Positions 17,323 to 40,709 of a stretch of DNA of 44,840 nt are shown one piece after another. The stretch covers positions 1 through 44,840 of the forward strand of contig PMIW01000162.1 of assembly GCA_003158365.1 (NCBI GenBank), written 5' to 3'. The translations under genes and the position numbers were made by a program. The notes beneath the pieces were generated by a model. The model was not told the DNA's origin, did not search any database, and worked only from the letters and a program-made list of their open reading frames with translations. Position 1 is the stretch's first letter. Every line of letters begins with the position of its first letter. The DNA comes from Ignavibacteriota bacterium. GTDB lineage: Bacteria; Bacteroidota; Ignavibacteria; Tepidaquicellales; Tepidaquicellaceae.

Positions 17323-18177
17323 TTATTCGCTAAGTCTTTTAAATAATCCGTTTATATTTATTGCAACCAGATTCCAGTTTTTCTCTCGCAATTTTTCATC
17401 CAATATTCCATTCTTTGAAAGACGGAAAATTTTATAATCTCTACCCAGTTCTTCATATACATTTTCTATTTCGAAATACTGTTTTGTAACATAATTGTAT
17501 TCAAAAATAATCAAAGGAATCTCTCTTTGAATTAAATTTCTTGCACCTTTCATTATTTTTAATTCTGCTCCTTCGGCATCAATAAGCATTATTATGTTTT
17601 TCTGATTTATATTTATTGTATCAATAGTAACAGTTTCAACTTTTAAATCCGAATTCCCGTTTGTATCTATGTGTGAACCGCTGAAACTTTCTGTTTTTTT
17701 AAATGACACAAATCCATTAGTATCATATGCGGCTTTTGGTACAATCAAAACATTTTTAAAATTGTTTTTTTCAACTGTCTTATTCAGAGATAATACACAT
17801 TCGATCTGCGGTTCAAAAATATAAAACTTATCTATTTGATTATCACCTCCGAAATCAATTAAAAACTCTCCTACATTACCCCCTACTTCCACTAAAGTAA
17901 AATTCATATTGCTAAATGTGTTCAAAATATGTCTTAAAAAAATATGCGTTTCCGTCTCATTATATTTCCCATTAATTAACCTGGCATAAGAACCTCTTAC
18001 CTTTGGATTGTAAAAAAGAAATTTATTTCCGAACCGAAAATAATCTTCGTAATTTAAAAATTTATAGAAAAAGCTGACACCTTTTATATTAATATTAAAT
18101 ACAGAATGTAAAAATTCATGTATATGCATAAATAGTTTAACAATGTATACTATAATTCTGCTATTTTTCTTTATCAT
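17323..18177 (-). CDS. FkbM family methyltransferase
   Basis: A 284-residue FkbM-type SAM-dependent O-methyltransferase. Motif I is VEVGGNVGEF (97-106), followed by the family-typical FEPQ near residue 121, IVPKAAYD, the Ser-rich SGSH and the late motif LIDAEGAELKIMKGA. Such enzymes methylate hydroxyls of sugars or polyketides. Before the domain lies an extra helical stretch of about 90 residues. It is one of two FkbM genes in this locus; the second (22001-22669) is shorter and quite different, so they probably have different acceptors. Confidence 0.88.
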   Translation of the reverse strand: MIKKNSRIIVYIVKLFMHIHEFLHSVFNINIKGVSFFYKFLNYEDYFRFGNKFLFYNPKVRGSYARLINGKYNETETHIFLRHILNTFSNMNFTLVEVGGNVGEFLIDFGGDNQIDKFYIFEPQIECVLSLNKTVEKNNFKNVLIVPKAAYDTNGFVSFKKTESFSGSHIDTNGNSDLKVETVTIDTININQKNIIMLIDAEGAELKIMKGARNLIQREIPLIIFEYNYVTKQYFEIENVYEELGRDYKIFRLSKNGILDEKLREKNWNLVAININGLFKRLSE

Positions 18178-22000: not shown

Positions 22001-22669
22001 TTATTTTAATCTCCAGTTTTCCCAAACAAAAGGATATTCATACGTTGGATAGTGAGTTATAGCAAGCCTGCTTCTTATTTTATCTCTTAACAAATCATCT
22101 CCATAATTAAAATTGTGAAATTGAACTTGAATATTTTTAAAAAAATTAATTCTATTATTTGCTAAAACCTTATCAAGTAACTCATATTCCATGCCTTCGA
22201 TATTAATCTTAATTAAATCAACATCCCTAATATTATTTTCATCCATAAATTCAACAATTGATTTTATAAAAATATTTCTTGATTCTGAGCTTTTTTTTAT
22301 TGCACTCGACGCAGCTCCATCTAAGGTAATAAGCTCAGTTCTTGTTTCCGAGCCTAATCCTGATTTGTATAATTTTATATTATTTCTTCCTTTGAATTTA
22401 TTTAGGGCAATTTCAAAAAACTCATCTATTGGTTCAAAAAAATAAATCTGCGATTTATATTTTCTGTCAATATTATTTGTAAACTCTCCCACATATCCCC
22501 CTACATCAAAAACTATACTTTTTCCATTCAAAGGATAATTATATCGTAATTTTCTTTCCCCTTTAGCGAGATACCATTTATATAGAAAATAGTTTTTTTT
22601 ATCTCTAAGAATATATATTTTAATAAATGCTTTTAATTGGAGTATAATTTCACCTAAATAATTGCTCAT
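22001..22669 (-). CDS. FkbM family methyltransferase (short form)
   Basis: A 222-residue FkbM-type methyltransferase: motif I FDVGGYVGEF (54-63), FFEPIDEFFE, the Ser-rich region around SSAIKKSSE, and LIKINIEGMEYELLDK where the Asp-Glu pair of the family reads INIEG. It is shorter than the other FkbM gene by about 60 residues at the N terminus. It lies 8 bases downstream of the Wzx gene, so it is probably co-translated. The acceptor is unknown; a sugar O-methyl group is the usual product in such loci. Confidence 0.85.
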   Translation of the reverse strand: MSNYLGEIILQLKAFIKIYILRDKKNYFLYKWYLAKGERKLRYNYPLNGKSIVFDVGGYVGEFTNNIDRKYKSQIYFFEPIDEFFEIALNKFKGRNNIKLYKSGLGSETRTELITLDGAASSAIKKSSESRNIFIKSIVEFMDENNIRDVDLIKINIEGMEYELLDKVLANNRINFFKNIQVQFHNFNYGDDLLRDKIRSRLAITHYPTYEYPFVWENWRLK

Positions 22670-24133: not shown

Positions 24134-25198
24134 TTATTTTTCTTTTTGTACTAACGAATTTAATTCTTCGAATGAATTCAGTACTTTCACCTGATTTTCA
24201 AAGAGTTTATTAATATAATCTTTATGCGGAGTCAGGCTTACATTGAATTCATTTAATAATATATTACTTAAATCAATTGAATATGTATTATAAAGCAAAT
24301 TTGCATTTACAAGAGCAGTTGAAAGAAATCCAAATAAGTAATCGGGTTTAAAGAAATCGAGCAATGACTCAATGGGTAAATCGTGGGGCAATACATCTAC
24401 ACCATAAATATCATATTGATCGAGAATATCACACTGATGCGGTTTTATATAAACTTTTATATTTTCTTTTTTCAAAATTTTGATAAGCTTATCAAGAAAC
24501 CCCATATATTCTGCATGATGATTTAAGATAGGATATGATGCAATAAATGCGGATCCTGTTAAATCCTTGTTTCTGTATTTATTCAGCGTTTCTCCAACAG
24601 AATTATAAATAGAATTTGAATATTTAGCAAGAAATTCCCTGTAATTTGCAATGACATCAGTATTTGGTATTAAATTATATTTCCCTTTTTTTGTAAAGAA
24701 TGTAAAATCTTCGCTTTTGTATAACATCATTTTAATCAGAATCCTTTTTATTTTGCTTTTCAGGGCAAACACATATCCCTTTTCGTTATAATATGTAGAA
24801 ATACCTTCTTCTATAACCACACACTTTATAAGAGAATTAAACATTGATAAAGTAAAAAAAATCAAATTGAGACTTGCATTTCTTACATTAACAATATGTA
24901 TAGATTTATCATATCCACGAAATATAAAATGCTTTAGTATTATAAAATACTTACTCGGAAGTATTTTAAAGTAACTATAATTTTTAACAATCCTAATATT
25001 TACATTTTCTATTTCAAATACCTGTTCTTTTATCGGGTCGTTTCTCAACCAGTTTTTTCCGACATATATTACTCCATTAACTTTTTCCGATTTCGAAATC
25101 CTATAAGCGTATGTTATAGCACCAAGCAGGTGATATATATCACCAACAAAGGCAATTAGGTTTGTATCTCTTGATAGCAAGCTGTATTTATTTCTCAT
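24134..25198 (-). CDS. sialyltransferase/polysialyltransferase-like GT-B protein (putative nonulosonic acid transferase)
   Basis: A 354-residue protein without an obvious common glycosyltransferase signature. Three short motifs in order resemble those of bacterial sialyltransferases of the GT38/GT52/GT97 type: VIEEGIS (E130-E131-G132, the D/E-D/E-G motif), IKPHQ (residues 251-255, in place of the HP motif), and FLSTAL (Ser293-Thr294, the S/T motif). LPHDLPIESLL lies between the last two, as in that group. It follows the pseudaminic-acid genes and overlaps the GNAT gene by 11 bases, which suits a transferase for CMP-activated nonulosonic acid. The assignment rests on short motifs and context only. 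Confidence 0.55.
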   Translation of the reverse strand: MRNKYSLLSRDTNLIAFVGDIYHLLGAITYAYRISKSEKVNGVIYVGKNWLRNDPIKEQVFEIENVNIRIVKNYSYFKILPSKYFIILKHFIFRGYDKSIHIVNVRNASLNLIFFTLSMFNSLIKCVVIEEGISTYYNEKGYVFALKSKIKRILIKMMLYKSEDFTFFTKKGKYNLIPNTDVIANYREFLAKYSNSIYNSVGETLNKYRNKDLTGSAFIASYPILNHHAEYMGFLDKLIKILKKENIKVYIKPHQCDILDQYDIYGVDVLPHDLPIESLLDFFKPDYLFGFLSTALVNANLLYNTYSIDLSNILLNEFNVSLTPHKDYINKLFENQVKVLNSFEELNSLVQKEK

Positions 25199-25734: not shown

Positions 25735-27045
25735 TTAAGTTAACCTTTTAAAGCCTGAATGACAAACTGGAGTTTTTAAAAAATTTTCCGGATTTCCGGA
25801 TTGTATGGCTTTGTAAATAATTTCAAATGCTTCATTAGCAGAAAACTCATATTTATTTAAAGCTATATCATCATGTGCATATGAAGAATAAAAGGCATTT
25901 GTTGCAAGCACTCCTCGTTCAAGCATCTCCTGTGTGTACAAGGTTTTTAGTGACAAAGCATTCGTGTAATTAAAAGCAAAATGTGCAAGAGGATCAATAC
26001 CTGAAACTTCTATTTCAATATTATTGTTTTTTGCAACTCTTAACCAAATATCTTTCATTTTTTTCCCGGTATTAATTAAATGAGTTGGAACATCTTTCGC
26101 TATAATTTTTTTCACAGTAGCAATGGCAGATACGGGACCAATCCTTTCTGTCCAGTAAGTACTGCTTATAAACGAATCCTGTGCCGCTTGCATCACATTC
26201 CCGTTTCCGATTATAGCTGCCATTGGGTACCCGTTACTCATTCCTTTGGCAAACACAGCAATATCCGGTTCAAAATTAAAAAGTAAATGTGCCCCGCCTT
26301 TGTTTAATCGCCACCCTGCAGTTATTTCGTCAACAACCAATGGGATTTTTTCTTTTAACGAAGTCTCTTTTATTATTTGCAAAAACTCGATATTTGGATT
26401 TGTATTTCGGATTGATTCAAGTACTATAGCTCCAATGTTATCCTTATGTTTTTTTACAAGAGATAAAAATCCTTTTGCATCATTATAATTAAAAGGAAAA
26501 GTTAATCCTGTAAGACCTCGAGGAACACCAAGCGGATCTAAACCGGGTAACAAATGCCCATCGAGAGATTTTTCGTCAGATAGATTTGCGGATAGATACC
26601 AATCGTGCCATCCGTGATATCCACAAAATAGTACTTTATCTTTTTTTGAATATGCTCTTGCGATTCTAACTGCAATGGACATTGCTTCTCCGCCGGAACG
26701 TGCATATCTTACCATTTCCGCCCATGGATGTAAAGAAACGATTAACTCTGCAAATCCGACCTCCTCCGGTGCATTAAGTGTGCTCATTGTACCATTCGAT
26801 ATTGCTTCTTTTACAGCATTGTTAACATCTTTATCAGCATAACCTAATATACAGGAACCAATTCCCATATAACTCATATCAATGTATTCTTTACCGTCTA
26901 AGTCCCATATTTTATACCCTTCTGCTTTTTCATAATACGCCGGCCACAAACCAGGTAAAAACATTTCAGGTCTTTTGGAAAGCAGCTGTGTTCCACCCGG
27001 GATAATTTTTTTTGCTTTTTCGTACAAATCCAATGTTTTACTCAT
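25735..27045 (-). CDS. class III PLP aminotransferase (GSA-aminomutase-like) in a Pse module
   Basis: A 436-residue fold-type I, class III aminotransferase related to glutamate-1-semialdehyde 2,1-aminomutase (HemL). Features: YARSGGEAMSIAVRIARAY, the CGYHGWHDWY region, VVDEITAGWR with Asp239, and the PLP lysine in FAKGMSNG (Lys267). The context, between an SpsF-like cytidylyltransferase and a GNAT, shows it is not the tetrapyrrole enzyme. Homologues in nonulosonic-acid loci are thought to aminate a sugar or nonulosonate carbonyl, but the substrate is unproven. It overlaps the cytidylyltransferase gene by 8 bases. Confidence 0.87.
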   Translation of the reverse strand: MSKTLDLYEKAKKIIPGGTQLLSKRPEMFLPGLWPAYYEKAEGYKIWDLDGKEYIDMSYMGIGSCILGYADKDVNNAVKEAISNGTMSTLNAPEEVGFAELIVSLHPWAEMVRYARSGGEAMSIAVRIARAYSKKDKVLFCGYHGWHDWYLSANLSDEKSLDGHLLPGLDPLGVPRGLTGLTFPFNYNDAKGFLSLVKKHKDNIGAIVLESIRNTNPNIEFLQIIKETSLKEKIPLVVDEITAGWRLNKGGAHLLFNFEPDIAVFAKGMSNGYPMAAIIGNGNVMQAAQDSFISSTYWTERIGPVSAIATVKKIIAKDVPTHLINTGKKMKDIWLRVAKNNNIEIEVSGIDPLAHFAFNYTNALSLKTLYTQEMLERGVLATNAFYSSYAHDDIALNKYEFSANEAFEIIYKAIQSGNPENFLKTPVCHSGFKRLT

Positions 27046-27829
27046 TTTTTAGTTTTTTATCAAGTTCTAAAGATTTTGTATATCCTAAATTTCTTTGAAT
27101 ATGTTTATTAACATCTAAGACTTTTGAATTTTCAGAAAGAAAATTCAGAAGTTTATCGAGACTTATATAAGATTTTTCATCATATAGTTTTTCATAAATT
27201 AAGGAAATCAGTTCGTAATCTTCTTCGTTATCTAATGTTAGTCTTATATGTTCAAGATTTTTATCCGATTCGTAATTTCCGATATTAAATATTTCCTTGT
27301 GATTTCTTATATAAGGTGTAACATGTTCCCTTTCGGAATTAAGATTCGCATTTTTCCATGCTTTTTCTAAAGATTCAAAATTAAACACTTCAACATCATA
27401 TCCATCGGGAAAAGTCGGTGGGTCAACATTTGAAGTATAATCGAATTTATTTATCAAATGTAAATCAATTACATTATCAATTATTTTCGGATCAATTAAT
27501 GGACAATCACCTGTCACCCTTATTAATATATCTGCTTTTGAATTTTTTGCAGCCTGATAAAACCTGTCAAGAACATCATCAAGACTTCCTCTGAAACATT
27601 TTATGTTAAAACCTTTAGCCCATTGAAATAATATATCGTCGGTTAAATCTACACTTGTTGCTAATATGTATTCATTAATTTTTTTTGAAAACGATAATTG
27701 CCTGAAAACTTGTTCTAAATTGGGTTTCCCTGCTAATGGTTTCATCATTTTTTCCGGTAAACGTGATGATGACATCCTCGCTTGAACAATACATACAATT
27801 TTTTTCTCGGATGTTTTCATTTCTTCCAT
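27038..27829 (-). CDS. spsF: SpsF-like cytidylyltransferase (putative CMP-nonulosonate synthetase)
   Basis: A 263-residue nucleotidyltransferase of the SpsF/acylneuraminate cytidylyltransferase family. The glycine-poor P-loop IVQARMSSSRLPEKMMKP (about 14-31) binds CTP, and IRVTGDCPLIDP carries the metal-binding Asp. In the Bacillus sps operon, SpsF stands with SpsC (PseC), SpsE (PseI) and SpsG (PseG), exactly the set found here, so the likely job is CMP activation of the nonulosonic acid (PseF role). It overlaps both neighbours (13 bases with the aldo/keto reductase, 8 with the aminotransferase). The start may be the ATG at 27829 or the one three codons later. Confidence 0.88.
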   Translation of the reverse strand: MEEMKTSEKKIVCIVQARMSSSRLPEKMMKPLAGKPNLEQVFRQLSFSKKINEYILATSVDLTDDILFQWAKGFNIKCFRGSLDDVLDRFYQAAKNSKADILIRVTGDCPLIDPKIIDNVIDLHLINKFDYTSNVDPPTFPDGYDVEVFNFESLEKAWKNANLNSEREHVTPYIRNHKEIFNIGNYESDKNLEHIRLTLDNEEDYELISLIYEKLYDEKSYISLDKLLNFLSENSKVLDVNKHIQRNLGYTKSLELDKKLKNE

Positions 27830-28683: not shown

Positions 28684-29717
28684 TTGTTTTCTATGAACTC
28701 CCAGTTTAACGGGGTTCCTCTTTTAATGTTTGTATTGGATTTTTTGCCTAAAACATCATAATAATATTTGGGATGCAATCCATACCCGGGTCTGATTGAC
28801 TTAATATTTTCTTTTGTGAAAACTTCACCTGTTTTTATATCTTTAACGACAAAAAGTGAACGCGCAAATACTTTATTCTTTTTTCCCTTTTCACCTAACA
28901 CATAAGTTATTTTTCCTGTAGCTTTTTCTGTTTCCCTGATTAACTTTGTCATTTGCGAAAACTCTGATGGCTCTATGGAAAATACCCAGTCTGTTCCCCC
29001 AAGTTTTCAATCTAGTATAAAATGTTTTTCGATAATCTTTGCTCCTAAAGCAGCTGCTGCTATAGGGACACCAATCCCTGTTGTATGATCTGATAAACCT
29101 GCTATACAACTAAATCTTTTTGCCATATCAGGTATGGTAAGCAGATTCGCTTCTTCAATTGGAGCGGGATATTCCGATGTACACTTTAGTAAAGCTATTT
29201 GATTATTACCTACATCTTTACAAGCATTTACCGCTTCTTCAATATCATTAAGTTCTGCCAAACCTGTGGAAATTACTATTGGTTTTCCTTTCGATGCAAT
29301 ATATTTAATAAGGGGAATATCAAATATTTCAAAAGATGCAACTTTATACATAGGGACATCAAGCTCTTCGAGAAAATCTACCGCTGTAAAATCAAAAGGT
29401 GTGGAAAAGAATATTAAATCTAAACTTTCTGCATGCTTCTTTAATTTACTGTGCCACTCCCATGGCGTATATGACTGCCTATATAGCTCATACAGTGTTT
29501 TACCGTCCCAAAGTGAACCGTTATTAATCCTAAAATATTCATTATTACAATCTATTGTCAGCGTATCTGCTGTGTAAGTCTGAATTTTAATTGCATCAGC
29601 GCCGGATTCTTTTGCAGCGGAAATAGTTTTCAATGCTAAATCGATACTTTGATTGTGATTAGCAGAGAGTTCTGCTACAATAAATATTTTTTTAAAATCA
29701 AAATTATTTTTCATCAT
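28680..29717 (-). pseudogene. pseI: pseudaminic acid synthase gene (NeuB family) broken by an in-frame TGA
   Basis: Two frames, 29717-29007 (236 codons) and 29006-28680, are in the same reading frame, with one TGA at 29007-29009 between them. Together they give a normal-length NeuB-family enzyme of about 345 residues: a TIM barrel and a C-terminal SAF (antifreeze-like) domain. NeuB enzymes condense phosphoenolpyruvate with a 6-carbon sugar. SLWDGKTLYELY, SYTPWEWH and KGKPIVISTG match the PseI type more than sialic or legionaminic synthases. The TGA lies in EKHFILD-[stop]-KLGGTDW, where homologues have Arg, so a single change from CGA or AGA explains it. The SAF domain keeps SIRPGYGLHPKYY. TGA ends several neighbouring genes, so recoding is unlikely. 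A nonsense mutation or a sequence error are the two explanations. Confidence 0.88.
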
Positions 29718-29718
29718 T

Positions 29719-30753
29719 TCAACCTTTTAAATTACTGCAAATCTCAGGAATAACCGATAGCATCTTATGTTTGATAAATATATTTTTTACGGTCATAAAT
29801 AATTTTTCCCTGATTCCTGAATCAGATATTACGTTTATTAATTTATTTGATAATTCTTCAATTTCAATATTATTAATATCTCCGATAGAATACGCTAATT
29901 CTTTTTCTTTTAACTGTTCATTAATAGCTATCTGATTTTCCACAGTAAAACCTGTTACAATCGGGGTATTTAATTTCAGCAATTCCCAAACGGTACTTCC
30001 TGAAGCACTGACAGCTAAATCGCACCACTTAATTAATGAAACGACATTATTAGAATTTTGAACTACTTCTATTGAATGCTTGCTTTCCTTCATATAATTT
30101 AAAATCGAATCTATATATACGTTAGTAAAGCCCAATAGAGTTTTAATACTTAATTTTGTATCGTTTTTTTCAAAGGCTTTAAGAACTTTTAGCGTATTAT
30201 TATTTTCATCACTTCCACCCATTGTAATTAAAATATTTTTGCACTCATTTTTCAGACTCCTTCTCCACCCTCTCAATTCTCTAAATTCTCTTCTTAATAA
30301 TACATACCGCAAGCCTAGAAATAGTTTTGTGTAATTTTCACAGGAATATTTGAATATTTTTTCCGCATTTATATTCTGATTCAAAATGTAATCACTGACA
30401 TAATGACATTTTGCTATATCATCTATACACATCAATTTAAGCCCGTAATTTTTTATAATTGTTTGATATTCGGTTTCAAATTTATAACCATCCGTGATTA
30501 CCAAATCTATTTCATTATTCTTTGCATATTTTGCAGTATATTCTGAATCTTTCAATAAATTATCATATTCTGTAATTTTTATAACTTTGAACTTTTCATT
30601 TGCTATTCTGTCTATTACTTTTTGTTGACTGGAATTTGTAACAAAAATAACATTATGCTTTTCTTCACTCAACATTTGTCCGAGAGCAATGCATCGTATA
30701 ACATGACCGGTACCAATTTCAAATGAAGCATCCGCCCTTATAAGAAAATTCAT
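29719..30753 (-). CDS. pseG: UDP-2,4-diacetamido-2,4,6-trideoxy-beta-L-altropyranose hydrolase
   Basis: A 344-residue GT-B-fold hydrolase that removes UDP from the pseudaminic acid precursor, giving the free sugar for PseI. The start IRADASFEIGTGHVIRCIALG holds the catalytic His (His17). The second half has ITMGGSDENN and ASGSTVWELLKLNTP, where the nucleotide binds, and ENQIAINEQLKEKEL. Length and motif order match PseG/SpsG without a fused acetyltransferase. Two bases separate it from pseI and four from the upstream methyltransferase, so it is firmly part of the Pse module. Confidence 0.92.
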   Translation of the reverse strand: MNFLIRADASFEIGTGHVIRCIALGQMLSEEKHNVIFVTNSSQQKVIDRIANEKFKVIKITEYDNLLKDSEYTAKYAKNNEIDLVITDGYKFETEYQTIIKNYGLKLMCIDDIAKCHYVSDYILNQNINAEKIFKYSCENYTKLFLGLRYVLLRREFRELRGWRRSLKNECKNILITMGGSDENNNTLKVLKAFEKNDTKLSIKTLLGFTNVYIDSILNYMKESKHSIEVVQNSNNVVSLIKWCDLAVSASGSTVWELLKLNTPIVTGFTVENQIAINEQLKEKELAYSIGDINNIEIEELSNKLINVISDSGIREKLFMTVKNIFIKHKMLSVIPEICSNLKG

Positions 30754-30756
30754 AAG

Positions 30757-31620
30757 CTATTTTGCGGAATTTATATTTTTATTTCCAATAAACATTCCCG
30801 ATTTGGTTTGTACTTTAAATATTTTGTTTTCTCTGATTTCATTAATAACATATTCTTTTACAGATTTAAATAATTTTTCCCACATATTAACCGGAATATC
30901 TTTATACAAGTAAATTTGAGATTTTAAATAAATCAAATAATAATCCAAAAACGGTTCCGGTGACTCAAACAACAATTCATTATCAAGTGTATAACCCGTA
31001 ACATTTGAAAAATATTTACTCAGAACAGATTCTCCTTCTTCCAGATTAAACCCAGTACACCTTTCTGGATTTCCTGTTGTGTATTCAGGAAACTTTAATG
31101 ATTTCATAAAATTGAAATGTAAATCATATAATTGGTGCATATAATCAGATGAATTGGTTGTCGCAATAAAAACTCCCTGTAATGTCATTGAATTGGATAA
31201 TCTTTTTAAAAATTTCTCTTTATCTTTTATATGCCACAACATATGATTACACATAATTAAATCATAACTGTTAGATTCATAATCTATTACTTCAACATCT
31301 GCAACTTCATATTTTACTTTTTCCTTATTTTCTATTGTTTGTTCACTTGCGGTTTGAATATTTGATTTGGAAAGATCATAACCCGAATAATAATTTCCTA
31401 TACTTTTTTGCAACAGATATTTTATAAACCTGCCTTCACCGCATCCTAAATCCAAAACTTTATTAATGTTTTCCTCATTTGGTAATTTATCAAGAACCCA
31501 TGCATCCCACATCACCCTGATTTTACTAAAGTTTTTATGAACATTTATTCTTTTCATCAAATCAGTACTATCGCTATAATATTCCTTAATATTATTTAAA
31601 AATGTTAATTCACTATTCAT
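30757..31620 (-). CDS. class I SAM-dependent methyltransferase
   Basis: A 287-residue methyltransferase with motif I VLDLGCGEGRF (about 55-65), YSGYDLSKSNIQ for the ribose-binding acid, and DLIMCNHMLWHI. The first 40 residues look helical, and the C-terminal third carries a family-specific lid. It stands between pseC and pseG, so it may methylate a nonulosonic acid precursor or its product; methylated forms occur in nature. The position inside the module is the only hint for the substrate. Confidence 0.85.
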   Translation of the reverse strand: MNSELTFLNNIKEYYSDSTDLMKRINVHKNFSKIRVMWDAWVLDKLPNEENINKVLDLGCGEGRFIKYLLQKSIGNYYSGYDLSKSNIQTASEQTIENKEKVKYEVADVEVIDYESNSYDLIMCNHMLWHIKDKEKFLKRLSNSMTLQGVFIATTNSSDYMHQLYDLHFNFMKSLKFPEYTTGNPERCTGFNLEEGESVLSKYFSNVTGYTLDNELLFESPEPFLDYYLIYLKSQIYLYKDIPVNMWEKLFKSVKEYVINEIRENKIFKVQTKSGMFIGNKNINSAK

Positions 31621-31629
31621 CTTTTGTGT

Positions 31630-32829
31630 TTATTTTGTTAACAAATGCTTTATTTTATCTGTTACATATTCAATTTCTACATCACTTAAATCCGGAAACA
31701 TTGGAATACTCAGACAGTTCTTATAATAATTTTCCGAATTTGGAAAATCACCCTGCTTGTAGCCATATTTTTGAGCATAATAAGGTTGTAGATGAACCGG
31801 GATATACAGGACCTGCGATCCGATTTTATTCTCCCTCAATTCTTTCATGACTGAATTTCTTGACCTTCCAAGTTTTTCGAAATCGATTTGCAAAGTATAT
31901 AAATGGTAAGATGATTTTACATATTCTTTTTCTACCGGTGTAGTTACTATATTAATTTCTGAAAATCGGGAATTATAATACTCCGCAATCTTTCTTCTTC
32001 TCTCCACAAACTTATCTATCTTTTTCAATTGACTCAATCCAAGTGCACACTGAATATCGGTGATTCTGTAATTGTGGCTTACTTCATTCATTTCATAATA
32101 CCACATATTCGGTTCCTTTTTTTCATCATAAGCCAAATTTTTGTTTACAAACTTATCCGCATTTTTATGCATCCCGTGATTTCTGTAAATTATCAATCTT
32201 TTATATAATTCTTCATCATTTGTCGTCGCAATTCCGCCTTCACCTGTAGTAATATGCTTGACTGGATGGAAACTAAAGACCGCAATGTCTGAAAATTCAC
32301 ATGAACCAACTTTGTTATTTTTGTAACTGCTGCCAAAAGCATGACAAGCATCTTCTATAATTTTAAAATTATATTTTTTCTTTAAATCATAGATTTCTTC
32401 CATATCACAGGAATGACCTCCCAGATGAACAGGTATAACAAAATCAATTTTTTGCTTTTGTAATTTATTTTCGAATTCTTCAACGGATAAATCGAATGTA
32501 TCGGGTGTAACATCTGAAAAAACAACATCGGCACCAACAAATTGTGTACAGTTTGCTGAAGCAAGAAAAGTTACAGTTGACGTTACTGCATTCATTCCTT
32601 TTTTTAAACCTAATGCAAGACTGGCAATATGCAACGCAGATGTACCGCTCGAGCAGGCTACCGCATATTTTACATTCAAATACTTTGCAACCTCCTCTTC
32701 AAATTTATTTATCGCCGGACCTTGCGTAATAAAATCGCTCCTCAGCACTTCCACAACTGATTGAATGTCTTCTTCGCTTATCTTTTGTCTGCCATACGGT
32801 ATAAATCTGTTAGGACTTTGAATTTTCAT
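31630..32829 (-). CDS. pseC: UDP-4-amino-4,6-dideoxy-N-acetyl-beta-L-altrosamine transaminase
   Basis: A 399-residue DegT/DnrJ/EryC1-type PLP aminotransferase, second step of pseudaminic acid synthesis. The PseC-typical pattern is clear: FIPYGRQKISEEDIQSV, VLRSDFITQGP, TSTVTFLASANCTQF, IPVHLGGHSCDM, then SFHPVKHITTGEGG with the PLP lysine Lys191. PseC is normally paired with PseB (UDP-GlcNAc 4,6-dehydratase), which is not found in this window. Its start overlaps the end of the CBS-SDR gene by 20 bases. Confidence 0.92.
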   Translation of the reverse strand: MKIQSPNRFIPYGRQKISEEDIQSVVEVLRSDFITQGPAINKFEEEVAKYLNVKYAVACSSGTSALHIASLALGLKKGMNAVTSTVTFLASANCTQFVGADVVFSDVTPDTFDLSVEEFENKLQKQKIDFVIPVHLGGHSCDMEEIYDLKKKYNFKIIEDACHAFGSSYKNNKVGSCEFSDIAVFSFHPVKHITTGEGGIATTNDEELYKRLIIYRNHGMHKNADKFVNKNLAYDEKKEPNMWYYEMNEVSHNYRITDIQCALGLSQLKKIDKFVERRRKIAEYYNSRFSEINIVTTPVEKEYVKSSYHLYTLQIDFEKLGRSRNSVMKELRENKIGSQVLYIPVHLQPYYAQKYGYKQGDFPNSENYYKNCLSIPMFPDLSDVEIEYVTDKIKHLLTK

Positions 32830-34237
32830 TATTATATTCTTCCCAAAATTTTATATTGTAATAAATTTTGTTTTCAGGATTTTTTATTAATTTATTTTTA
32901 AAAAAATTATACAATTCCCTGTACCCTTCTTTTACGGATATATAATTAAAAGAATCCACTTCTTTTTCATATTTGTCAAATGATACTTTGTAATTTCTAT
33001 TGTCTTTCTCAGATTTATTAATATTTATTTTTACTTTAGGGAATATCTCTTTCGCTAAATAAGCAACATCAATTATTTTAAGATTGTTTTTCTTATTTCC
33101 GATATTATAGATTCGGTTACCAACAATCTCCAACTTTGAATTTAATACAGAAATTATTGCTTTTGAAACATCTTTCACGTGAACATTTGGTCTCCACTGC
33201 TCTCCGCCAAATACGTTAAGTTCTTTATAAAAATATGCATTCTTAGCAAACAAATTCACGACCAAATCAAACCTTGATCTATTTGAAACTCCAAATACTG
33301 TAGATAACCTCAAAATGGTAGGTGAAAAATTCTGGCTTACTTGGTTTAAAATAGCATGTTCCGACATCAATTTCATTCGTCCATAATGTGAAACAGGATT
33401 AACGGATGATGATTCCGTTAAGAAGTTATCTGGGTCTTTGCTTGCTCCATATACACTGCAGGAAGAAGTATATATAAATCTGTTAATATTTAAATATGAA
33501 CATAATGATGCCATCGAATTTACAGACAGGAAATTTGTTTTGAAAGCGGTTTCAGGAATTAGCGCACATGCGGGATCACCTACAATCTCCGCCAAATAAA
33601 CGACTGCATCTACATTGGAAATCGCTTTAATCAAGGTATTCGTATCTATAGCATCACCTTTTATCCTCTTAAAATAATCGGAATTAATTTTGTCCAAAGA
33701 ATCCTGGTTATAAACAAAATTATCGAGAACTTTTACCATATAACCTTTTTTTAATAATGCTCTAACCAAAACCGAACCAATATATCCTGCACCGCCTACA
33801 ACCAAAATCTTTGCTGGTATTTTATTTTTTTTGATTTTATATAAATAAGTCCCTGAAATTAATTCATCAAAACTAATTGCGCCTTTCACAATCATTTTAT
33901 CGTCAACAATGGGTATTAAAATATATTTTCTTGAATAGCTGTCATCCGGATAAAGTTTATTCAGCCTGTTTATTATATCGTTCTTATTACCTTCGTTATT
34001 TAGTTGATTTGATGTTATATACACGGGTACTTTGTTCATTACAATTTTGAGTTGCGTTTCAAGACTATATCCTTTTAGTAATGACCTTCTTAAATCACCT
34101 TCAGTTATAACACCTTTTAATTTTCCCGATTTATCGATAATAGTAATAAGAATTCCGAATTTGCTTTTGATTTTTTCAAAAGCATATCTTATTGTCTTTT
34201 CTTCATTTATATTAATATATAAATTTGAATCGTGCAT
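32810..34237 (-). CDS. CBS-domain pair fused to an extended SDR sugar epimerase/dehydratase
   Basis: One unbroken 475-residue frame holds two unlike parts. Residues 5-130 are a CBS pair (GVITEGDLRRSLL in the first, ILIPIVDDKMIVKGAISFDEL in the second), a module that senses adenosyl nucleotides. Residues 143-475 are an extended short-chain dehydrogenase: NAD loop GGAGYIGS (148-155), TSSCSVYG, and the active-site pair Tyr285 and Lys289 in HYGRMK. The SDR resembles epimerases/dehydratases for nucleotide sugars, close to CDP- or dTDP-sugar enzymes; it lacks the features I expect of PseB. Fusion of CBS to a nucleotidyltransferase is known; to an SDR it is unusual. The cupin gene ends 4 bases before, so both may act on one nucleotide sugar. 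Confidence 0.87.
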   Translation of the reverse strand: MHDSNLYININEEKTIRYAFEKIKSKFGILITIIDKSGKLKGVITEGDLRRSLLKGYSLETQLKIVMNKVPVYITSNQLNNEGNKNDIINRLNKLYPDDSYSRKYILIPIVDDKMIVKGAISFDELISGTYLYKIKKNKIPAKILVVGGAGYIGSVLVRALLKKGYMVKVLDNFVYNQDSLDKINSDYFKRIKGDAIDTNTLIKAISNVDAVVYLAEIVGDPACALIPETAFKTNFLSVNSMASLCSYLNINRFIYTSSCSVYGASKDPDNFLTESSSVNPVSHYGRMKLMSEHAILNQVSQNFSPTILRLSTVFGVSNRSRFDLVVNLFAKNAYFYKELNVFGGEQWRPNVHVKDVSKAIISVLNSKLEIVGNRIYNIGNKKNNLKIIDVAYLAKEIFPKVKININKSEKDNRNYKVSFDKYEKEVDSFNYISVKEGYRELYNFFKNKLIKNPENKIYYNIKFWEEYNNENSKS

Positions 34238-34241
34238 TATT

Positions 34242-34694
34242 TTATCTTTTTAAAATTTCCCATGGATTCCAGTAATAGGCTTCATACCTGAAATCATCGT
34301 TCTTGCTTTCTTCAAGGGTTGAAGTAGAAAAGAATATCAAATTAGTGTCTTCTTTTAAAGTCATAAAACCATTTGCAAATCCTTTTGGAATATATAAAAT
34401 CGAAGGTGATTTATCACTCACAACATACCTGTTTATTTTTAAATCTTTTGAAGGTTTTTTCCAATTATCGATTTTTACGGCTGCAACTACTGCCGCACCC
34501 GTTACTACGTAAACATATTTTGATTCGTTTTTATGTGCATGCCATGCTCTGACAAAATTATTTTGGTAATTGGATACTTGGTAAAATCTTTTAATTGAAT
34601 TCATATCAAAATCATTACAAAATCTTACTTCGCCTCTGTCATCTACAGACACTCCGCCTTTGATTAAACCGATTTCATTTTCTGATTGATTCAT
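34242..34694 (-). CDS. RmlC-like cupin (dTDP-4-keto-sugar 3,5-epimerase family)
   Basis: A 150-residue cupin. SVDDRGEVRFCNDF, RAWHAHKNESKYVYVVTGAA and ILYIPKGFANGFMTL match the RmlC family, including the active-site His in WHAHK. It is shorter than RmlC proper (about 180 residues). It lies directly before the CBS-SDR gene, 4 bases apart, so it probably epimerises or isomerises the same keto-sugar nucleotide. No RmlA or RmlB is in the window, so the dTDP link is an assumption. Confidence 0.8.
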   Translation of the reverse strand: MNQSENEIGLIKGGVSVDDRGEVRFCNDFDMNSIKRFYQVSNYQNNFVRAWHAHKNESKYVYVVTGAAVVAAVKIDNWKKPSKDLKINRYVVSDKSPSILYIPKGFANGFMTLKEDTNLIFFSTSTLEESKNDDFRYEAYYWNPWEILKR

Positions 34695-34726: not shown

Positions 34727-35206
34727 CTACAAATATAAATAAAAATCAAAATATTTTTGTTTGTTTATGATATAAGATTTTTTAAATAAATATCCGGCAT
34801 TCAAGAAAATTTTTTGAGATGCTTCATTAAAATCCTTTACTGTTGCTTTGATTTTTGAAACGTTTGGATATTCCTTTATAATTACTTTTTGTGAAAGTGA
34901 AAGCATTTTCCCCGATATTTTTTTTCCTCTGAATCTTTTATGAACACTTATACTTATTTCCGCTTCATTATTTTTTACAATGTATCTAACCTGTCCTATT
35001 AATTTATCTCTAAAATGAAATAACAAGAATAGATGATTTATATCTTTTAATTTTTTTGTAAACCAATTTTTATGTTCTTCCCATTTTATAACTGTGCTGA
35101 CAGATGAGTTCAATCTAACAAGCGGATCATTGGATAGATAAAATATTTTTCTAATATCGGAAGGTACTGCATTTCTGAGCGATATTTTAATATTGTTTTT
35201 CACCAA
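34727..35206 (-). CDS. GNAT N-acetyltransferase (PseH candidate)
   Basis: A 159-residue GNAT: ISLRNAVPSDIRKIFYLSND at the start, WEEHKNWFTKKLKD, and the acetyl-CoA loop HKRFRGKKISGKML. The SLRNA-x-LSND and NHLFLLF pattern resembles the acetyltransferases of nonulosonic-acid loci (PseH, or the domain fused to some PseG). It would then acetylate the 4-amino group made by PseC. The start is TTG at 35206 or GTG one codon later. A gap of 32 bases separates it from the cupin gene and 35 bases from wbpE. Confidence 0.75.
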   Translation of the reverse strand: MVKNNIKISLRNAVPSDIRKIFYLSNDPLVRLNSSVSTVIKWEEHKNWFTKKLKDINHLFLLFHFRDKLIGQVRYIVKNNEAEISISVHKRFRGKKISGKMLSLSQKVIIKEYPNVSKIKATVKDFNEASQKIFLNAGYLFKKSYIINKQKYFDFYLYL

Positions 35207-35241: not shown

Positions 35242-36420
35242 TCATTTAATAAAGCTAATGAACTGAATGATTGTTTCCACCACAAATTCAATTTGTTCGT
35301 CCCTTAGTTCCGGATAAATAGGAAGAGCTATTGTTTCGTTAGAAGCCCTTTCTGAATTTACAAAACTTGTATTCTCAAATCTTGATTTCAGGCTTGCGAA
35401 ACATTCCTGCTTGTGAAAAGGAACGGGATAATATATTTCCGTACTGACTTCTTTTTCTGTCAGATGCTTTCTTACATCATCGCGATTCTGCACCCTGATT
35501 ACATACTGATTGTAAATGTGATAGTTTTTAAACCCGCTGTCTTTATATATTGCTCCGGGCAATAATACTTTTTCCTTACTGCTGAATTCGGTTATGCCCT
35601 CTTTACCTGCTACACCCGATTCCATAAATAATTTTGTATAAAGACCTGCATTTTTTCTGCGTTTTTCGGACCAGCTGTCGAGATGTGGAAGTTTTACGTT
35701 TAATACTGCTGCCTGAATTGCATCGAGCCTGAAGTTACCTCCGATGATTTTGTGATAATATTTTGGCTTACCCCCGTGCACTCTCATAATCCTTAACTTT
35801 GCACCAAGCTCATCATTATTAGTGATTACAAGTCCGCCGTCACCAAAGCATCCAAGATTCTTACTCGGGAAAAATGAGAAACAGCCTATATCTCCGTGGT
35901 TACCTACTTTTCTTCCGTCTTTATACTGCACTCCTATTGCCTGTGCTCCGTCTTCGATTACTTTCAGGTTATGTTTCTTTGCAAGAGCTGTTATTTCATC
36001 CATTTCAGCGGATTGACCGTAAAGATGAACAGGAATAATTGCTTTTGTTTTACTTGTTATTTTGTTCTCAATAGATTTTACATCTATGTTGTATGTCACA
36101 GGATTCGAATCAACAAAAATAGGTATCGCATTCATTCTCGAAACAACACCTGCAGTCGCGAAGAATGAATAAGTCGGTACAATAATTTCGTCACCGGGTT
36201 TTATGTCTATTGCCATTAAAGCGATAAGTAATGCATCCGTTCCAGAGGAGACCCCGATTGCATACTTGCAGTCAAGATATTCACACATTGATTTTTCCAG
36301 TTTTTCTACTTCCGGACCAAGAATAAAATATTGTGACTCAGCTGTCCTAATTAACGCTTCATCAAGTTCATTCTTCAAGGTTTTATATTGCGCTTTTAAA
36401 TCAAGTAATGGTACTTTCAT
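35242..36420 (-). CDS. wbpE: DegT/DnrJ/EryC1 aminotransferase, UDP-3-keto-GlcNAcA type
   Basis: A 392-residue sugar aminotransferase with VPLLDLKAQYKTLKNEL, the YFILGPEVEKLE opening, GVSSGTDALLIAL, VPTYSFFATAGV and the PLP lysine Lys187 in FFPSKNLG. This matches WbpE/WlbC, which puts an amino group at C3 of UDP-GlcNAc-3-keto-uronate. The neighbours support this use: acetyltransferase WbpD and oxidoreductase WbpB are the next two genes upstream, and WbpA lies three genes upstream. It is clearly different from the PseC aminotransferase at 31630. Confidence 0.88.
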   Translation of the reverse strand: MKVPLLDLKAQYKTLKNELDEALIRTAESQYFILGPEVEKLEKSMCEYLDCKYAIGVSSGTDALLIALMAIDIKPGDEIIVPTYSFFATAGVVSRMNAIPIFVDSNPVTYNIDVKSIENKITSKTKAIIPVHLYGQSAEMDEITALAKKHNLKVIEDGAQAIGVQYKDGRKVGNHGDIGCFSFFPSKNLGCFGDGGLVITNNDELGAKLRIMRVHGGKPKYYHKIIGGNFRLDAIQAAVLNVKLPHLDSWSEKRRKNAGLYTKLFMESGVAGKEGITEFSSKEKVLLPGAIYKDSGFKNYHIYNQYVIRVQNRDDVRKHLTEKEVSTEIYYPVPFHKQECFASLKSRFENTSFVNSERASNETIALPIYPELRDEQIEFVVETIIQFISFIK

Positions 36421-36469
36421 GTTTATTAAAATTTATGTTCAGAAAAATCATTCAGTAATTATTTTCAAA

Positions 36470-37045
36470 TTATATTTCTTTAACAAGATTATTTTCCAAC
36501 TTGTACTTTTTCTGTGATTTATCACAAAAAGCAATTCCGTCTTTATCGAATTTTAATTTTTTACCTGCTTCGCTCAGCCACCCTACAACTCTGGCAGGAT
36601 TACCCACTGCAAGTGCAAAATCCGGAATATCTCTGGTAACTACAGCCCCTGCTCCGATAAATGCGAACCTGCCGATTGTATGTCCGCATACTATCGTGCT
36701 GTTCGCACCCAGCGACGCACCTTCTTTTACTAAAGTCTTTAAATAATATTGCGCACCTACCTGGGGATACTTGCTTCTCGGATCAATTATATTTGTAAAA
36801 ACCATCGATGGACCGCAAAATACGTAATCTTCCAGCTCGACACCTTCGTAAACAGATACGTTGTTTTGTATCTTTACAAAATTTCCGATTTTTACGTTAT
36901 TACCGATATTTACATTTTGTCCCAGAACACATTTGCTCCCTATTTTAGAACCGGATTGAACGTGGGAGAAATGCCACACTTTGGTACCTTCGCCAATTTC
37001 GACATTTTCATCAACAACGGCGAATTCATTTACATAATAATTCAT
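36470..37045 (-). CDS. wbpD: left-handed beta-helix N-acetyltransferase, WbpD/WlbB type
   Basis: A 191-residue hexapeptide-repeat protein with repeats such as VDENVEIGEG, IGSKCVLGQN and VNIGNNVKIGNFVKIQN, and the end VVTRDIPDFALAVGNPARVVG that marks the family. It would acetylate the 3-amino group of UDP-2-acetamido-3-amino-2,3-dideoxyglucuronate to give the diacetamido form. It stands between wbpE (49 bases) and wbpB (48 bases), completing the WbpA-B-E-D set. A general serine or sugar acetyltransferase is the less likely reading. Confidence 0.87.
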   Translation of the reverse strand: MNYYVNEFAVVDENVEIGEGTKVWHFSHVQSGSKIGSKCVLGQNVNIGNNVKIGNFVKIQNNVSVYEGVELEDYVFCGPSMVFTNIIDPRSKYPQVGAQYYLKTLVKEGASLGANSTIVCGHTIGRFAFIGAGAVVTRDIPDFALAVGNPARVVGWLSEAGKKLKFDKDGIAFCDKSQKKYKLENNLVKEI

Positions 37046-37093
37046 AATATTGTGAGTTTATTGATTATTTTTGAAAAGTACTTACAATTACTA

Positions 37094-38062
37094 TTATTCA
37101 TTTAATTTGACCTGCGAAATTTCCAGAACATCAAGTACATCCTTGGCGTGAACACCGTCCGTCCTCGGAGTTTTATCATTTATTATGCAGTCAAAGAAAT
37201 GTTTTTGCTCTTCTTCAAGCGGAGCTTTTTCCGGATAACTTATAACTTCATAATCCGAATCGAATTTTTCTATCGACCCGTTCACTATGCTGAATCCCTT
37301 TTTATAAAATTTAAGCTTTTCATTTTTCGAACTGTCCTGGAATACAAGCATCCCCTTGTCTCCTATTACTACTACACGGTGCTCTTTGAACGGATGAAGC
37401 CAGCTTACGAAAATGTGTGCGTGTACATTGTTCGGATATTTCAGGTATGTCAGAGTAGTATCTTCAATTTTTTCCTGCACAAATGCAGCCCCTTTAGCTC
37501 CGATATAAACAGGTTTGCTTCCTGTCAGGAACTGAATTATAGAAATATCGTGCGGGGCAAAACTCCATAATATGTTTTCTTCACTTCTTATCGTACCTAA
37601 ATTCAGCCTGTTGCTGTAAATATACTGAAGATTACCTATCAACCCTTCATCTATCATATCTTTCATTGTAAGTACAGCCGGATGATATAACAATACGTGC
37701 CCTACCATCAATTTTAATTTCCTTTCGTTCGAAATATTTATTAATTCAAAGGCTTCAGCTGAAAGCAAAGTAATCGGTTTTTCAACAAGTACATTTTTAT
37801 TTGCAAGAAGACATTTTTTTGCAACATCAAAATGAGTTTCTGCTGAGGTTGAAACAATTACTGCATTTATTCCGGAATCGTTTAAAACGTCATCCAGGTT
37901 AGAAGTAAATTTAATTTCTTTCGAAACCTGCTCAACCTTGCTTATGGCTGAGGAATTTATGTCACAAACAGATATTAAATTTTTATTTAAGATTTTGTAT
38001 GCGGTCTTAACATGATTCATTCCCCATTTCCCGCAACCTATAACTGCTAATTTTATTTCCAA
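37094..38062 (-). CDS. wbpB: Gfo/Idh/MocA oxidoreductase, WbpB/WlbA type
   Basis: A 322-residue NAD-dependent oxidoreductase: Rossmann motif VIGCGKWGMNH (about 7-17), NVLVEKPITLL with Lys95, and WSFAPHDISIIQFL with the catalytic His. It matches enzymes that oxidise C3 of UDP-GlcNAcA, the step before WbpE. The start is TTG: the first beta strand begins at residue 3, so no later start fits. Another Gfo/Idh/MocA domain in the window is in the bi-domain protein (11682-13814), but it is fused and differently placed. Confidence 0.85.
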   Translation of the reverse strand: MEIKLAVIGCGKWGMNHVKTAYKILNKNLISVCDINSSAISKVEQVSKEIKFTSNLDDVLNDSGINAVIVSTSAETHFDVAKKCLLANKNVLVEKPITLLSAEAFELINISNERKLKLMVGHVLLYHPAVLTMKDMIDEGLIGNLQYIYSNRLNLGTIRSEENILWSFAPHDISIIQFLTGSKPVYIGAKGAAFVQEKIEDTTLTYLKYPNNVHAHIFVSWLHPFKEHRVVVIGDKGMLVFQDSSKNEKLKFYKKGFSIVNGSIEKFDSDYEVISYPEKAPLEEEQKHFFDCIINDKTPRTDGVHAKDVLDVLEISQVKLNE

Positions 38063-38092
38063 TTTTTATTAATTTTATTTATTAAATGTGTT

Positions 38093-39187
38093 TTAATAGC
38101 CGCGTTTTAAAACTTTCCTGTAATCCGATTCAATCATTATCTTTACTAATTCATTGAATTTGGTTTTCGTCTGCCAGCCGAGTTTTTCTTTTGCTTTTGC
38201 AGAATTGCCGATTAATATATCGACTTCAGTCGGACGGTAATAGCCCTTATCCACTTCTACAACTACATCACCGATTTTCGGAATAATGTTTTTTTTATCG
38301 CCAACAATAGCACATTCGGATATTTTCTTTATTAATCCCTTTTCATCCTGCTCTTTACCTTTCCATTCCAGTTCTATTCCCAGCTCTTTAAAAGTCAGGT
38401 CCGTAAACTCCCTGACAGTATGTGTTTCACCTGTTGCAAGAACAAAATCCTCGGGATTTTTTTGCTGTAACATTAGCCACATACCCTCGCAGAATTCAGG
38501 TGCGTAACCCCAATCACGTTTTGCATTTAAATTACCCAGATACAATTTACTTTGCTTACCGAGTAAAATTCTTGAAACAGCTCTCGTAATTTTTCTTGTT
38601 ACGAATGTTTCCCCCCTTCTTGGCGATTCGTGATTGAACAAAATACCGTTGCACGCAAACAGATTATATGCTTCACGGTAATTTATCACAATCCAGTATC
38701 CGTAGATTTTTGCTGCTCCGTAAGGACTGCGGGGATAAAATGGGGTTTTTTCGTCTTGCGGAATCTCCTGTACTTTACCGAATAATTCGCTTGTCGAGGC
38801 CTGGTAAAATTTTGTCCTGATACCTGTTTCCCTTATAGCATCAAGAAATCTCAAAGTCCCTATTGCATCTACTTCAGCAGTATATTCGGGAATCTCGAAT
38901 GATACTTTTACATGGCTTTGTGCGGCAAGATTGTATATTTCATCGGGCTGGGTCTTCTCAATCAGCCTGTTCAGGTTGCTCGTATCTGTTACATCTCCGT
39001 AATGCAGGAATAATTTTTTATTCAGTATATCCGGATTATTATACAAATGGTCAATTCTACCGGTATTAAATGAACTGCTTCTTCTGATAATACCGTGAAC
39101 TTCATAATCTTTACCAAGCAAAATTTCGGTAAGGTAGCTTCCATCCTGTCCGGTTATTCCGGTTATTAATGCTATTTTCTTTTTCAA
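38093..39187 (-). CDS. gmd: GDP-mannose 4,6-dehydratase
   Basis: A 364-residue extended SDR that makes GDP-4-keto-6-deoxy-D-mannose, precursor of GDP-fucose, GDP-rhamnose and others. Diagnostic motifs: [39 protein letters not shown] (131-137), and the active pair Tyr156 and Lys160 in [23 protein letters not shown] is a hallmark of Gmd. Fcl or Rmd is not in the window, but the GT11 gene (19120) suggests fucose or a similar deoxyhexose. The start is TTG; an in-frame TAA five codons upstream and no ATG between leave no better choice. It is preceded by a 214-base spacer. Confidence 0.93.
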
Positions 39188-39277
39188 ATTTTGAAAATAT
39201 TAAATTTTTAATAAAATATTGCGACTTTTTGAATATAGCTCCGCCTAATTACTCACATTTAAGCAAAAAATCACAAA

Positions 39278-39299
39278 AAATTCAGATTTTACTGAATTT
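39278..39299 (-). terminator. weak hairpin with U-run in the gmd leader
   Basis: Arms AAATTCAG (39278-39285) and CTGAATTT (39292-39299) form an 8-bp stem with a 6-base loop. On the minus strand it is followed by a U-run (about TTTTTTG). It lies about 100 bases after the wbpA stop and before gmd. It could terminate the upstream transcript or act as a leader signal for the NusG-like protein. The stem has only two G-C pairs, so it may not work. Confidence 0.35.
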
Positions 39300-39310
39300 C
39301 TGTAATCTTA

Positions 39311-39339
39311 AATATACTTTTATTCAATACTTTTATCAA
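39311..39339 (-). promoter_or_regulatory. possible sigma-70-like promoter before gmd
   Basis: Read on the minus strand, TTGATA (39334-39339) and TATATT (39311-39316) are spaced 17 bases, close to the TTGACA/TATAAT pattern. It stands in the 214-base spacer (39188-39401) between wbpA and gmd, upstream of the hairpin at 39278-39299. If used, the leader would be about 115-125 bases long and carry that hairpin plus a short GGCGG patch (39241-39245). Such boxes are common by chance in AT-rich DNA, and the organism may use other promoter types. Confidence 0.3.
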
Positions 39340-39401
39340 TATAAAAAAAGGAATTCAAAAACCCACAATTCATTTATAATTACCGCAAAAATAAATACTT
39401 A

Positions 39402-40709
39402 CTAAGCTTTGAATATTTTTGAACTTTTAAATTTACCAAACGCATTCCTGGTATCAACTATAATCCTGGAATTCCGTAAAATAAATTCATAATCATAATA
39501 AGTATGATCAGTAGATAATAATACTAAATCATATTTTGAAAGATTGGATTTGGTAATTTTTGTTGATTTTTTATTAAACTTATATTTTCTTAATTTCGGA
39601 ATTTCCGTTACATAATCATCGTTATAATCCACAATCGCACCCCTGTCCTGAAGTAATTCAATTAATTTTAAGGACGGTGATTCACGTATGTCATCGATGT
39701 CTTTCTTGTATGCCAGTCCAAGTATTAGAATTTTTGCTCCGTTAATATGCTTGAAGTTTTTGTTAAATGCATGCATTACTTTTTCTACTACATAATACGG
39801 CATGGAAGTATTTACTTCACCTGCAAGCTCTATAAACTTCGTGGATATCTCAAATTCACGTGCTTTCCATGTTAAATAAAAAGGATCTATCGGTATGCAA
39901 TGCCCACCCAAACCAGGTCCGGGGTAAAACGGCGTGAACCCGAACGGTTTTGTAGATGCTGCACTTATTACTTCCCAAATATCTATGTCCATTCTGTCGA
40001 ACACTGTTTTTAATTCATTTACCAGAGCTATATTTATCGAGCGGTATATATTTTCAAGCAATTTAGTGGCTTCTGCTGCACGTGCGCTCGATACTGTTAC
40101 TACTGTATCAATTACTTTGCTGTAAATCATCTTTCCTATCATTGTGCATTTTTCAGTAACCCCGCCGACTACTTTGGGAATTGTAGACGTAGAATAGTGC
40201 GGATTATTCGGGTCTTCCCTTTCAGGCGAAAAACACAACCAGAAATCTTTTCCTACTTTTAAACCGGTTTTTTCAAGTATGCGTAGTATATCCTCATCAG
40301 TTGTTCCGGGATATGTTGTGCTTTCAAGCGATATCAACTGCCCTTTTCGCATATACTTTGCAATCTCCTCGGTGGAATTCAATACATAACTCAAATCAGG
40401 CTCCCTGTTTGCATTTAATGGTGTCGGGACACAAATAATAACTGCATCTGTTTCTTTTATCCTCGAAAAATCCGTTGTCGCTAAAAATGTCTTTCTGTTC
40501 ACTTCTTTCTTTATTTTTTCAGAAGGGATATGTTTTATGTAAGATTTTTTTTCTTTATTTATTTTTCTGACTTTCCCGGCATCTAAATCAAATCCTATTA
40601 CCTGAATATTCTTAATGGAAAATTCCAAAGCAAGAGGCAAACCCACATATCCTAACCCGATTATTCCTACCTTAAATTTATTTTTTTTAATTTTTTGTAC
40701 TAAATCCAT
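39402..40709 (-). CDS. wbpA: UDP-N-acetylglucosamine 6-dehydrogenase
   Basis: A 435-residue UDP-glucose/GDP-mannose dehydrogenase family enzyme, oxidising C6 twice to a uronic acid. GLGYVGLP (18-25) binds NAD, CVPTPLNANREPDLS and SLESTTYPGTTDED are family motifs, and the catalytic Cys271 lies in GLGGHCIPIDPFY. Length and motifs match WbpA, which makes UDP-GlcNAcA, the substrate of WbpB. It is 21 bases after the NusG-like gene. Together with WbpB, WbpE and WbpD it gives UDP-GlcNAc(3NAc)A; no epimerase like WbpI is here, so the sugar may be used in the gluco form. Confidence 0.92.
   Translation of the reverse strand: MDLVQKIKKNKFKVGIIGLGYVGLPLALEFSIKNIQVIGFDLDAGKVRKINKEKKSYIKHIPSEKIKKEVNRKTFLATTDFSRIKETDAVIICVPTPLNANREPDLSYVLNSTEEIAKYMRKGQLISLESTTYPGTTDEDILRILEKTGLKVGKDFWLCFSPEREDPNNPHYSTSTIPKVVGGVTEKCTMIGKMIYSKVIDTVVTVSSARAAEATKLLENIYRSINIALVNELKTVFDRMDIDIWEVISAASTKPFGFTPFYPGPGLGGHCIPIDPFYLTWKAREFEISTKFIELAGEVNTSMPYYVVEKVMHAFNKNFKHINGAKILILGLAYKKDIDDIRESPSLKLIELLQDRGAIVDYNDDYVTEIPKLRKYKFNKKSTKITKSNLSKYDLVLLSTDHTYYDYEFILRNSRIIVDTRNAFGKFKSSKIFKA

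Follow-up and report, generated by a model that had tools for sequence, protein, structure and literature searches.

Rare-sugar synthesis has known examples of CBS-domain pairs at its isomerase (KpsF/GutQ) and nucleotidyltransferase steps, and adenylates are common ligands of such pairs. Cj1427 of Campylobacter, the nearest solved relative of one half of the protein described below, oxidises C4 of GDP-heptose; its NADH is tightly bound and recycled by alpha-ketoglutarate, and its product passes to the C3/C5 epimerase Cj1430 (PMC10680097). Cj1430 is an RmlC-like cupin (PMC7949155).

The DNA considered here, to which I will refer as the window, is a stretch of 44,840 nucleotides from an Ignavibacteriota bacterium. 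An earlier reading, made from the letters alone (the sequence-only reading), had placed in it an open reading frame joining a CBS pair to an SDR, and the placement was correct: the frame lies at 32810-34237 on the minus strand, runs unbroken from an ATG start, and encodes 475 aa. The CBS pair and linker occupy residues 1-141 (33815..34237, minus strand) and the extended SDR domain residues 142-475 (32810..33814, minus strand). The gene starts 4 bp past that of an RmlC/FdtA-like cupin upstream (34242..34694, minus strand; PF00908 at 48.6 bits, and synteny) and overlaps by 20 bp the gene for a DegT aminotransferase, a PseC equivalog (31630..32829, minus strand; TIGR03588, 498.5 bits against a cut-off of 423.5). 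The CBS-SDR protein is a real, recurrent architecture assembled from known parts, and the fusion is a testable control point, not a new type of system. My overall reading, to which I give a probability of roughly 0.5, is that a dehydrogenase resembling Cj1427 carries a CBS module as its regulator and supplies an aminotransferase with substrate. I am surer of the domains and of the pairing with the aminotransferase than of the mechanism as a whole.

The CBS half divides into CBS1 (about residues 7-54), a degenerate CBS2 (about 74-128) and the linker (129-141). PF00571, whose gathering cut-off is 24 bits, matches residues 9-54; the score is 27.5 bits for the whole protein and rises to 33.2 bits when the N-terminal 141 aa are taken alone. 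Only CBS1 passes, CBS2 lying below Pfam detection. Both halves are seen in the fold predicted by AlphaFold, the first as strand 7-11, helix 16-22, strands 30-34 and 39-44, and helix 46-54, the second as helix 82-95, strands 107-111 and 116-122, and helix 123-128. In the model of the full protein, pLDDT in the CBS blocks is mostly 77-97 and the linker is disordered at 132-138. The structure prediction that the sequence-only reading had proposed as a check, with residues 1-141 modelled alone, gave the standard tandem CBS fold again (mean pLDDT 84). Two beta-alpha-beta-beta-alpha units in tandem are thus found in both models and by Foldseek, which aligned about 130 columns with solved CBS pairs at E values of about 1e-8. 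Homologues point the same way: a profile built on the CBS pairs of seven fusions recovered haloarchaeal fusions left out of its construction, most at E values of 1e-10 to 1e-13, and the CBS assignment is therefore beyond chance.

The same profile scored 76 bits with a CBS-NTP-transferase, 58 with a CBS-UDP-sugar dehydrogenase, 26-49 with the haloarchaeal fusions, about 42-49 with most KpsF/GutQ-type proteins and 26 with IMPDH. By this kinship, the CBS half belongs with the CBS pairs carried by sugar-nucleotide enzymes, which form a portable module. The protein is not itself of the KpsF/GutQ type (SIS + CBS), since TIGR00393 reached 26.7 bits against a cut-off of 203.7 and covered the CBS region only. 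Another uncommon fusion came to light in locus L010 (271-1989, minus strand; 572 aa), where a similar CBS pair is joined to a UDP-sugar/GDP-mannose dehydrogenase; L010 was considered as a CBS-epimerase and set aside, since the enzyme that bears its CBS pair is a UDP-sugar dehydrogenase.

The SDR half is complete, as had been claimed. PF01370 (Epimerase) matches residues 144-380 with 152 bits (cut-off 20.9), and the extended SDR marks GxxGxxG and Tyr-x-x-x-Lys are both present, with GGAGYIGS at 148-155, S-S-C-S at 258-261, Tyr285 and Lys289, the Tyr and Lys being invariant in 41 aligned relatives. In the PDB, Cj1427 matches it best both in sequence (E value 1e-41) and in fold, where the TM score on the target is 0.92 and the identity 34%. 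Positions matching the Asp-Glu acid/base pair of RmlB hold Cys in 40 of 41 relatives and Ser in all 41 (Cys260-Ser261 here), and this Cys-Ser in place of Asp-Glu makes dehydration unlikely. The role of an NDP-sugar 4,6-dehydratase (RmlB/LegB/PseB) was rejected, its acid-base pair (acidic/Lys, following the Ser/Thr) being absent and the equivalog models scoring far below their cut-offs, the PseB model TIGR03589 reaching 34.4 bits of the 407.75 required. The GalE model TIGR01179 likewise falls short (106.7 bits against 262.3), and the label of epimerase given by the sequence-only reading yields to a nearest solved relative that is a C4-dehydrogenase. The best reading, judged from these likenesses, is that the SDR half is a Cj1427-type former of NDP-sugar ketones. 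Its specificity for C4 would be carried over by homology, as Cj1427 is about 34% identical and has N-T-N-S in place of the S-C-S stretch.

The fusion occurs in at least 12 further loci besides the window, a count to be read as a lower bound from a biased sample, since the patterns used to scan assembled genomes were derived from CBS-SDR sequences. The carriers are Pelagibacteraceae (48% in the best segment, among the matches listed), Thermoplasmata, Peregrinibacteria, Aenigmatarchaeota, two Bacteroidetes MAGs, and haloarchaea including Natronococcus. Of 396 genomes of the window's phylum, 49 (the window's own included) have an SDR relative at an E value of 1e-32 or better, and among these 49, with few candidates scored per genome, only the match of the window's own genome covered the CBS part; within the phylum the fusion is best called rare rather than absent. 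Among plasmids, five haloarchaeal records align with 93% of the length; the CBS part alone found no plasmid match at 1e-5, though the full-length alignment spans it. Close-match patterns gave no relative in viral contigs, and phages matched the SDR part only. The idea that the fusion is unique to the window genome is ruled out by the plasmid and assembled-genome matches. The sequence-only reading had thought such fusions with SDRs not common: they are uncommon, but they recur across several phyla. No description of the fusion was found in the searchable, open-licence literature, nor any characterised example, so that the architecture is not the common and already characterised one that would have undone the earlier proposal.

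In a tree of 58 SDR rows, the 13 fusions form one set with two relatives that lack the CBS part, L031 and L032 (support 84/86), a topology compatible with a history for which one gain and one loss suffice. The window and Pelagibacteraceae proteins are sisters (100/99), and their loci have in common the order cupin, CBS-SDR, PseC, continued by PseF in the partial Pelagibacteraceae genome. Among the matches listed, 12 of the 13 CBS-SDR loci have a DegT gene no more than 1 kb from the fusion, the exception being Natrinema (L050), and most of the closest CBS-less relatives also adjoin DegT. The sister set of stand-alone SDRs has instead a cupin of the same family directly adjacent; the cupin is thus a conserved neighbour both in Pelagibacteraceae and of stand-alone relatives. 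A recurrent pair of this kind, a stand-alone SDR directly beside a homologue of the cupin at 34242-34694, was seen in many phyla (many loci among L102-L126).

The neighbours bear on whether the SDR half might be an ordinary 4-epimerase or reductase that releases no ketone. Its Ser/Tyr/Lys active site is common to GalE-type enzymes, and several of the sequence and fold matches are 4-epimerases; but Cj1427 is clearly the best match on both counts, the GalE model is missed by the margin given above, and the frequent partners, aminotransferase and cupin, are both enzymes of keto sugars. I consider this alternative unlikely. Because both types of neighbour act on keto sugars, the gene order supports a ketone-forming dehydrogenase.

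Members of the SDR family bear other N-terminal modules as well. A membrane-spanning module precedes the SDR in L069, L071, L072 and L074-L084, from Acidobacteria, Planctomycetes, Verrucomicrobia and Chloroflexi; these proteins occupy one side of a branch (97/90) and their genes lie mostly beside DegT. In the window's own phylum, L029 (1117-2532) and L030 (1096-2514) have a Rossmann-like module before the SDR, and a UDP-sugar dehydrogenase gene follows them. With CBS, membrane and Rossmann-like versions in existence, N-terminal modules have been swapped repeatedly on this SDR family.

Such swapping, together with the two CBS-less proteins inside the clade, raises the alternative that the CBS pair is structural, serving oligomerisation or the docking of a partner, and has lost any sensing. 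The ribose-type motif reads T45-E-G-D48 (T-x-x-D) in CBS1 and S-x-x-E in CBS2. CBS2 is degenerate in nearly all members, and CBS1 no longer has its motif in haloarchaea or in L070, as a structural role would have it. On the other side, T/S-x-x-D is kept in CBS1 of the window, L064, L065, L067 and L068, and the pair has been retained across distant phyla. I hold a purely structural role to be rather unlikely, if the least so of the rival readings considered here.

If the pair does sense a ligand, its identity can be proposed with low confidence. The fold matches include CBS pairs that bind ATP, AMP, ADP, SAM and c-di-AMP, and since pairs with differing ligands all match, the fold search was discarded as a guide to the ligand. 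An energy sensor, in which binding of AMP, ADP or ATP would link the synthesis of capsule precursors to adenylate charge, draws on the frequency of adenylates among CBS ligands in general, on the likeness in fold to ATP- and AMP-binding pairs (MgtE, AcuB, IMPDH) and on the T-E-G-D retained in CBS1. Against it, likeness in fold does not separate ligands, and the relatives by sequence are sugar-nucleotide enzymes, with IMPDH among the weakest. Adenylate sensing is to my mind improbable.

AdoMet sensing, the proposal of the sequence-only reading, took its appeal from methyltransferases in the same locus. Four methyltransferase-like genes are indeed in the window (30757-31620, 13821-14516, and those of FkbM type at 22001-22669 and 17323-18177), and the fold search places the AdoMet-binding CBS pair MJ0100 (3kpb) 45th among its matches. 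The sequence kinship to MJ0100 does not exceed a generic one, however (E value 0.077), and none of the four has a homologue at any other listed CBS-SDR locus, for which reason the link through neighbouring methyltransferases was dropped. AdoMet sensing is accordingly very improbable; of the earlier regulatory proposal the general idea, still a prediction, is what survives. A nucleotide sugar of the pathway is a more natural ligand than AdoMet, given that the nearest kin of the CBS half are on sugar-nucleotide enzymes.

The surrounding genes suggest what that pathway may be. The locus looks like a Wzx/Wzy-type cluster for a capsule or surface polysaccharide, with Wzz/Wzc-like and SLBB export genes, a NusG-like factor, a flippase, glycosyltransferases and Wzi, besides an aldo/keto reductase and a class III aminotransferase. 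Downstream of the fusion on the minus strand are genes for a PseG-type UDP-sugar hydrolase (29719..30753; TIGR03590, 227.8 bits, cut-off 153.6), the pseudaminic acid synthase PseI (28707..29717; TIGR03586, 506.3 bits when read through one stop, above the cut-off) and a cytidylyltransferase, the candidate CMP-nonulosonate synthetase (27038..27829; PF02348, 117.8 bits). The pseI gene, the sole PseI match in the genome, is intact apart from a single in-frame TGA at 29007-29009 (HFILD*KLGG), for which a pseudogene, a sequencing error and strain variation cannot be told apart. Upstream of the cupin is a GNAT acetyltransferase gene (34727..35206, minus strand; PF13302, 39.3 bits) that possibly provides a PseH-like step. 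Another gene of the cluster is that for an alpha-2,8-polysialyltransferase-like protein (24134-25198; PF07388, 33.7 bits). At 11682-13814 the window encodes a 710-aa protein that combines a zinc-binding alcohol dehydrogenase domain with a Gfo/Idh/MocA domain. Genes at 35242-40709 for a UDP-sugar dehydrogenase, a Gfo/Idh oxidoreductase, a hexapeptide acyltransferase and a DegT protein look, by their Pfam families, like a WbpA/B/D/E set that would make a 2,3-diamino uronic acid.

The member of the pseudaminic set that the searches did not recover is PseB. No PseB above the cut-off was found in the window genome (best 54 bits; the assembly is 88.6% complete) or in the partial Pelagibacteraceae genome, and a search of the window genome for an alternative dehydratase with PF02719 and the LegB models gave below-par matches only. 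Since both genomes have the order cupin, CBS-SDR, PseC, the SDR and cupin may stand in for PseB. In the alignment the cupin keeps the His and Lys of the RmlC type and the catalytic Tyr is not evident (residue roles are those of PMC7949155), which leaves its epimerisation putative. A fully specified version of the route would have the CBS-SDR form a UDP-4-keto-HexNAc without dehydration, the cupin invert C5 and PseC aminate the product, leading to a nonulosonate with a 9-hydroxyl (not 9-deoxy) whose CMP-product feeds back on the CBS pair, with the archaeal and CPR loci that have NeuB and NeuC and no cupin following a D-series counterpart. Taken in all its parts, that scheme is a long shot. In L065, L066 and L067 the fusion is grouped with NeuB, NeuC and DegT and there is no cupin match, a setting that would fit a D-series route needing no C5 inversion.

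Read from the observed domains, predicted fold, missing dehydratase residues, conserved DegT neighbour and recurrence, the fusion would be an allosterically controlled NDP-sugar dehydrogenase. Its SDR half would turn a nucleotide sugar into a ketone by oxidising a ring hydroxyl, most likely the one at C4, without loss of water, the bound NADH probably being re-oxidised by alpha-ketoglutarate from the adjoining glutamate-dependent transaminase. In the window the RmlC-like cupin may then invert a neighbouring centre, SDR and cupin together filling the place of PseB, before the DegT/PseC aminotransferase presumably turns the ketone into an amino sugar. The CBS pair probably tunes this early oxidation according to how much of a nucleotide or nucleotide-sugar ligand is present, and the favoured candidate, speculatively, is the pathway end product, CMP-nonulosonate in NulO loci. 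NeuB is present in the window, L065, L066, L067 and L068 genomes, and no NeuB-family gene was found in the L070 or L073 genomes or the partial L064 genome, which makes CMP-nonulosonate unlikely as the ligand everywhere and weakens the notion of a universal one.

The fusion places a CBS pair on what is probably the ketone-forming oxidation just before transamination, from haloarchaea to SAR11, and its presence on that step in lineages so widely separated points to the oxidation as a control point. It also offers one purifiable protein in which to seek the ligand. Replacement of PseB, if true, would give nonulosonic acid synthesis a further, new branch, and surveys based on PseB or LegB would miss such pathways.

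Of the known proteins, PseB (the UDP-GlcNAc 4,6-dehydratase/5-epimerase) resembles the fusion in its place ahead of pseC in the gene order, but it belongs to another SDR family, and its dehydratase residues are absent from the CBS-SDR. The haloarchaeal proteins annotated as NAD-dependent epimerase/dehydratase (for example WP_226777392.1) have the same architecture and an adjoining DegT gene; they differ in being 32-36% identical, in their decayed CBS motifs and in the absence of nonulosonate genes nearby. The arabinose-5-phosphate isomerases KpsF/GutQ (4o9k, 3k2v) likewise carry a CBS pair of the TDGDLRR type on an enzyme of a sugar pathway, although the pair is C-terminal and the catalytic part is a SIS isomerase; 4o9k, a KpsF-type CBS pair in complex with CMP-Kdo, provides a lead to the ligand rather than a test of it, and no paper on it was found in the searchable literature. 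Cj1427 (6vo6, 6vo8) is the top match of the SDR half in both sequence and fold and acts ahead of an RmlC-like cupin, as the CBS-SDR may here, but it is without a CBS pair, its substrate is a heptose, a reductase rather than an aminotransferase follows, and the S-C-S stretch is not shared. The closest relatives of the CBS half in the profile search (76 bits) are the CBS-nucleotidyltransferases of nonulosonate loci (for example L017, beside a NeuC-like gene; PtmE type), which share with the fusion the N-terminal CBS pair and the NulO setting and differ in that their catalytic part is a sugar-1-phosphate nucleotidyltransferase.
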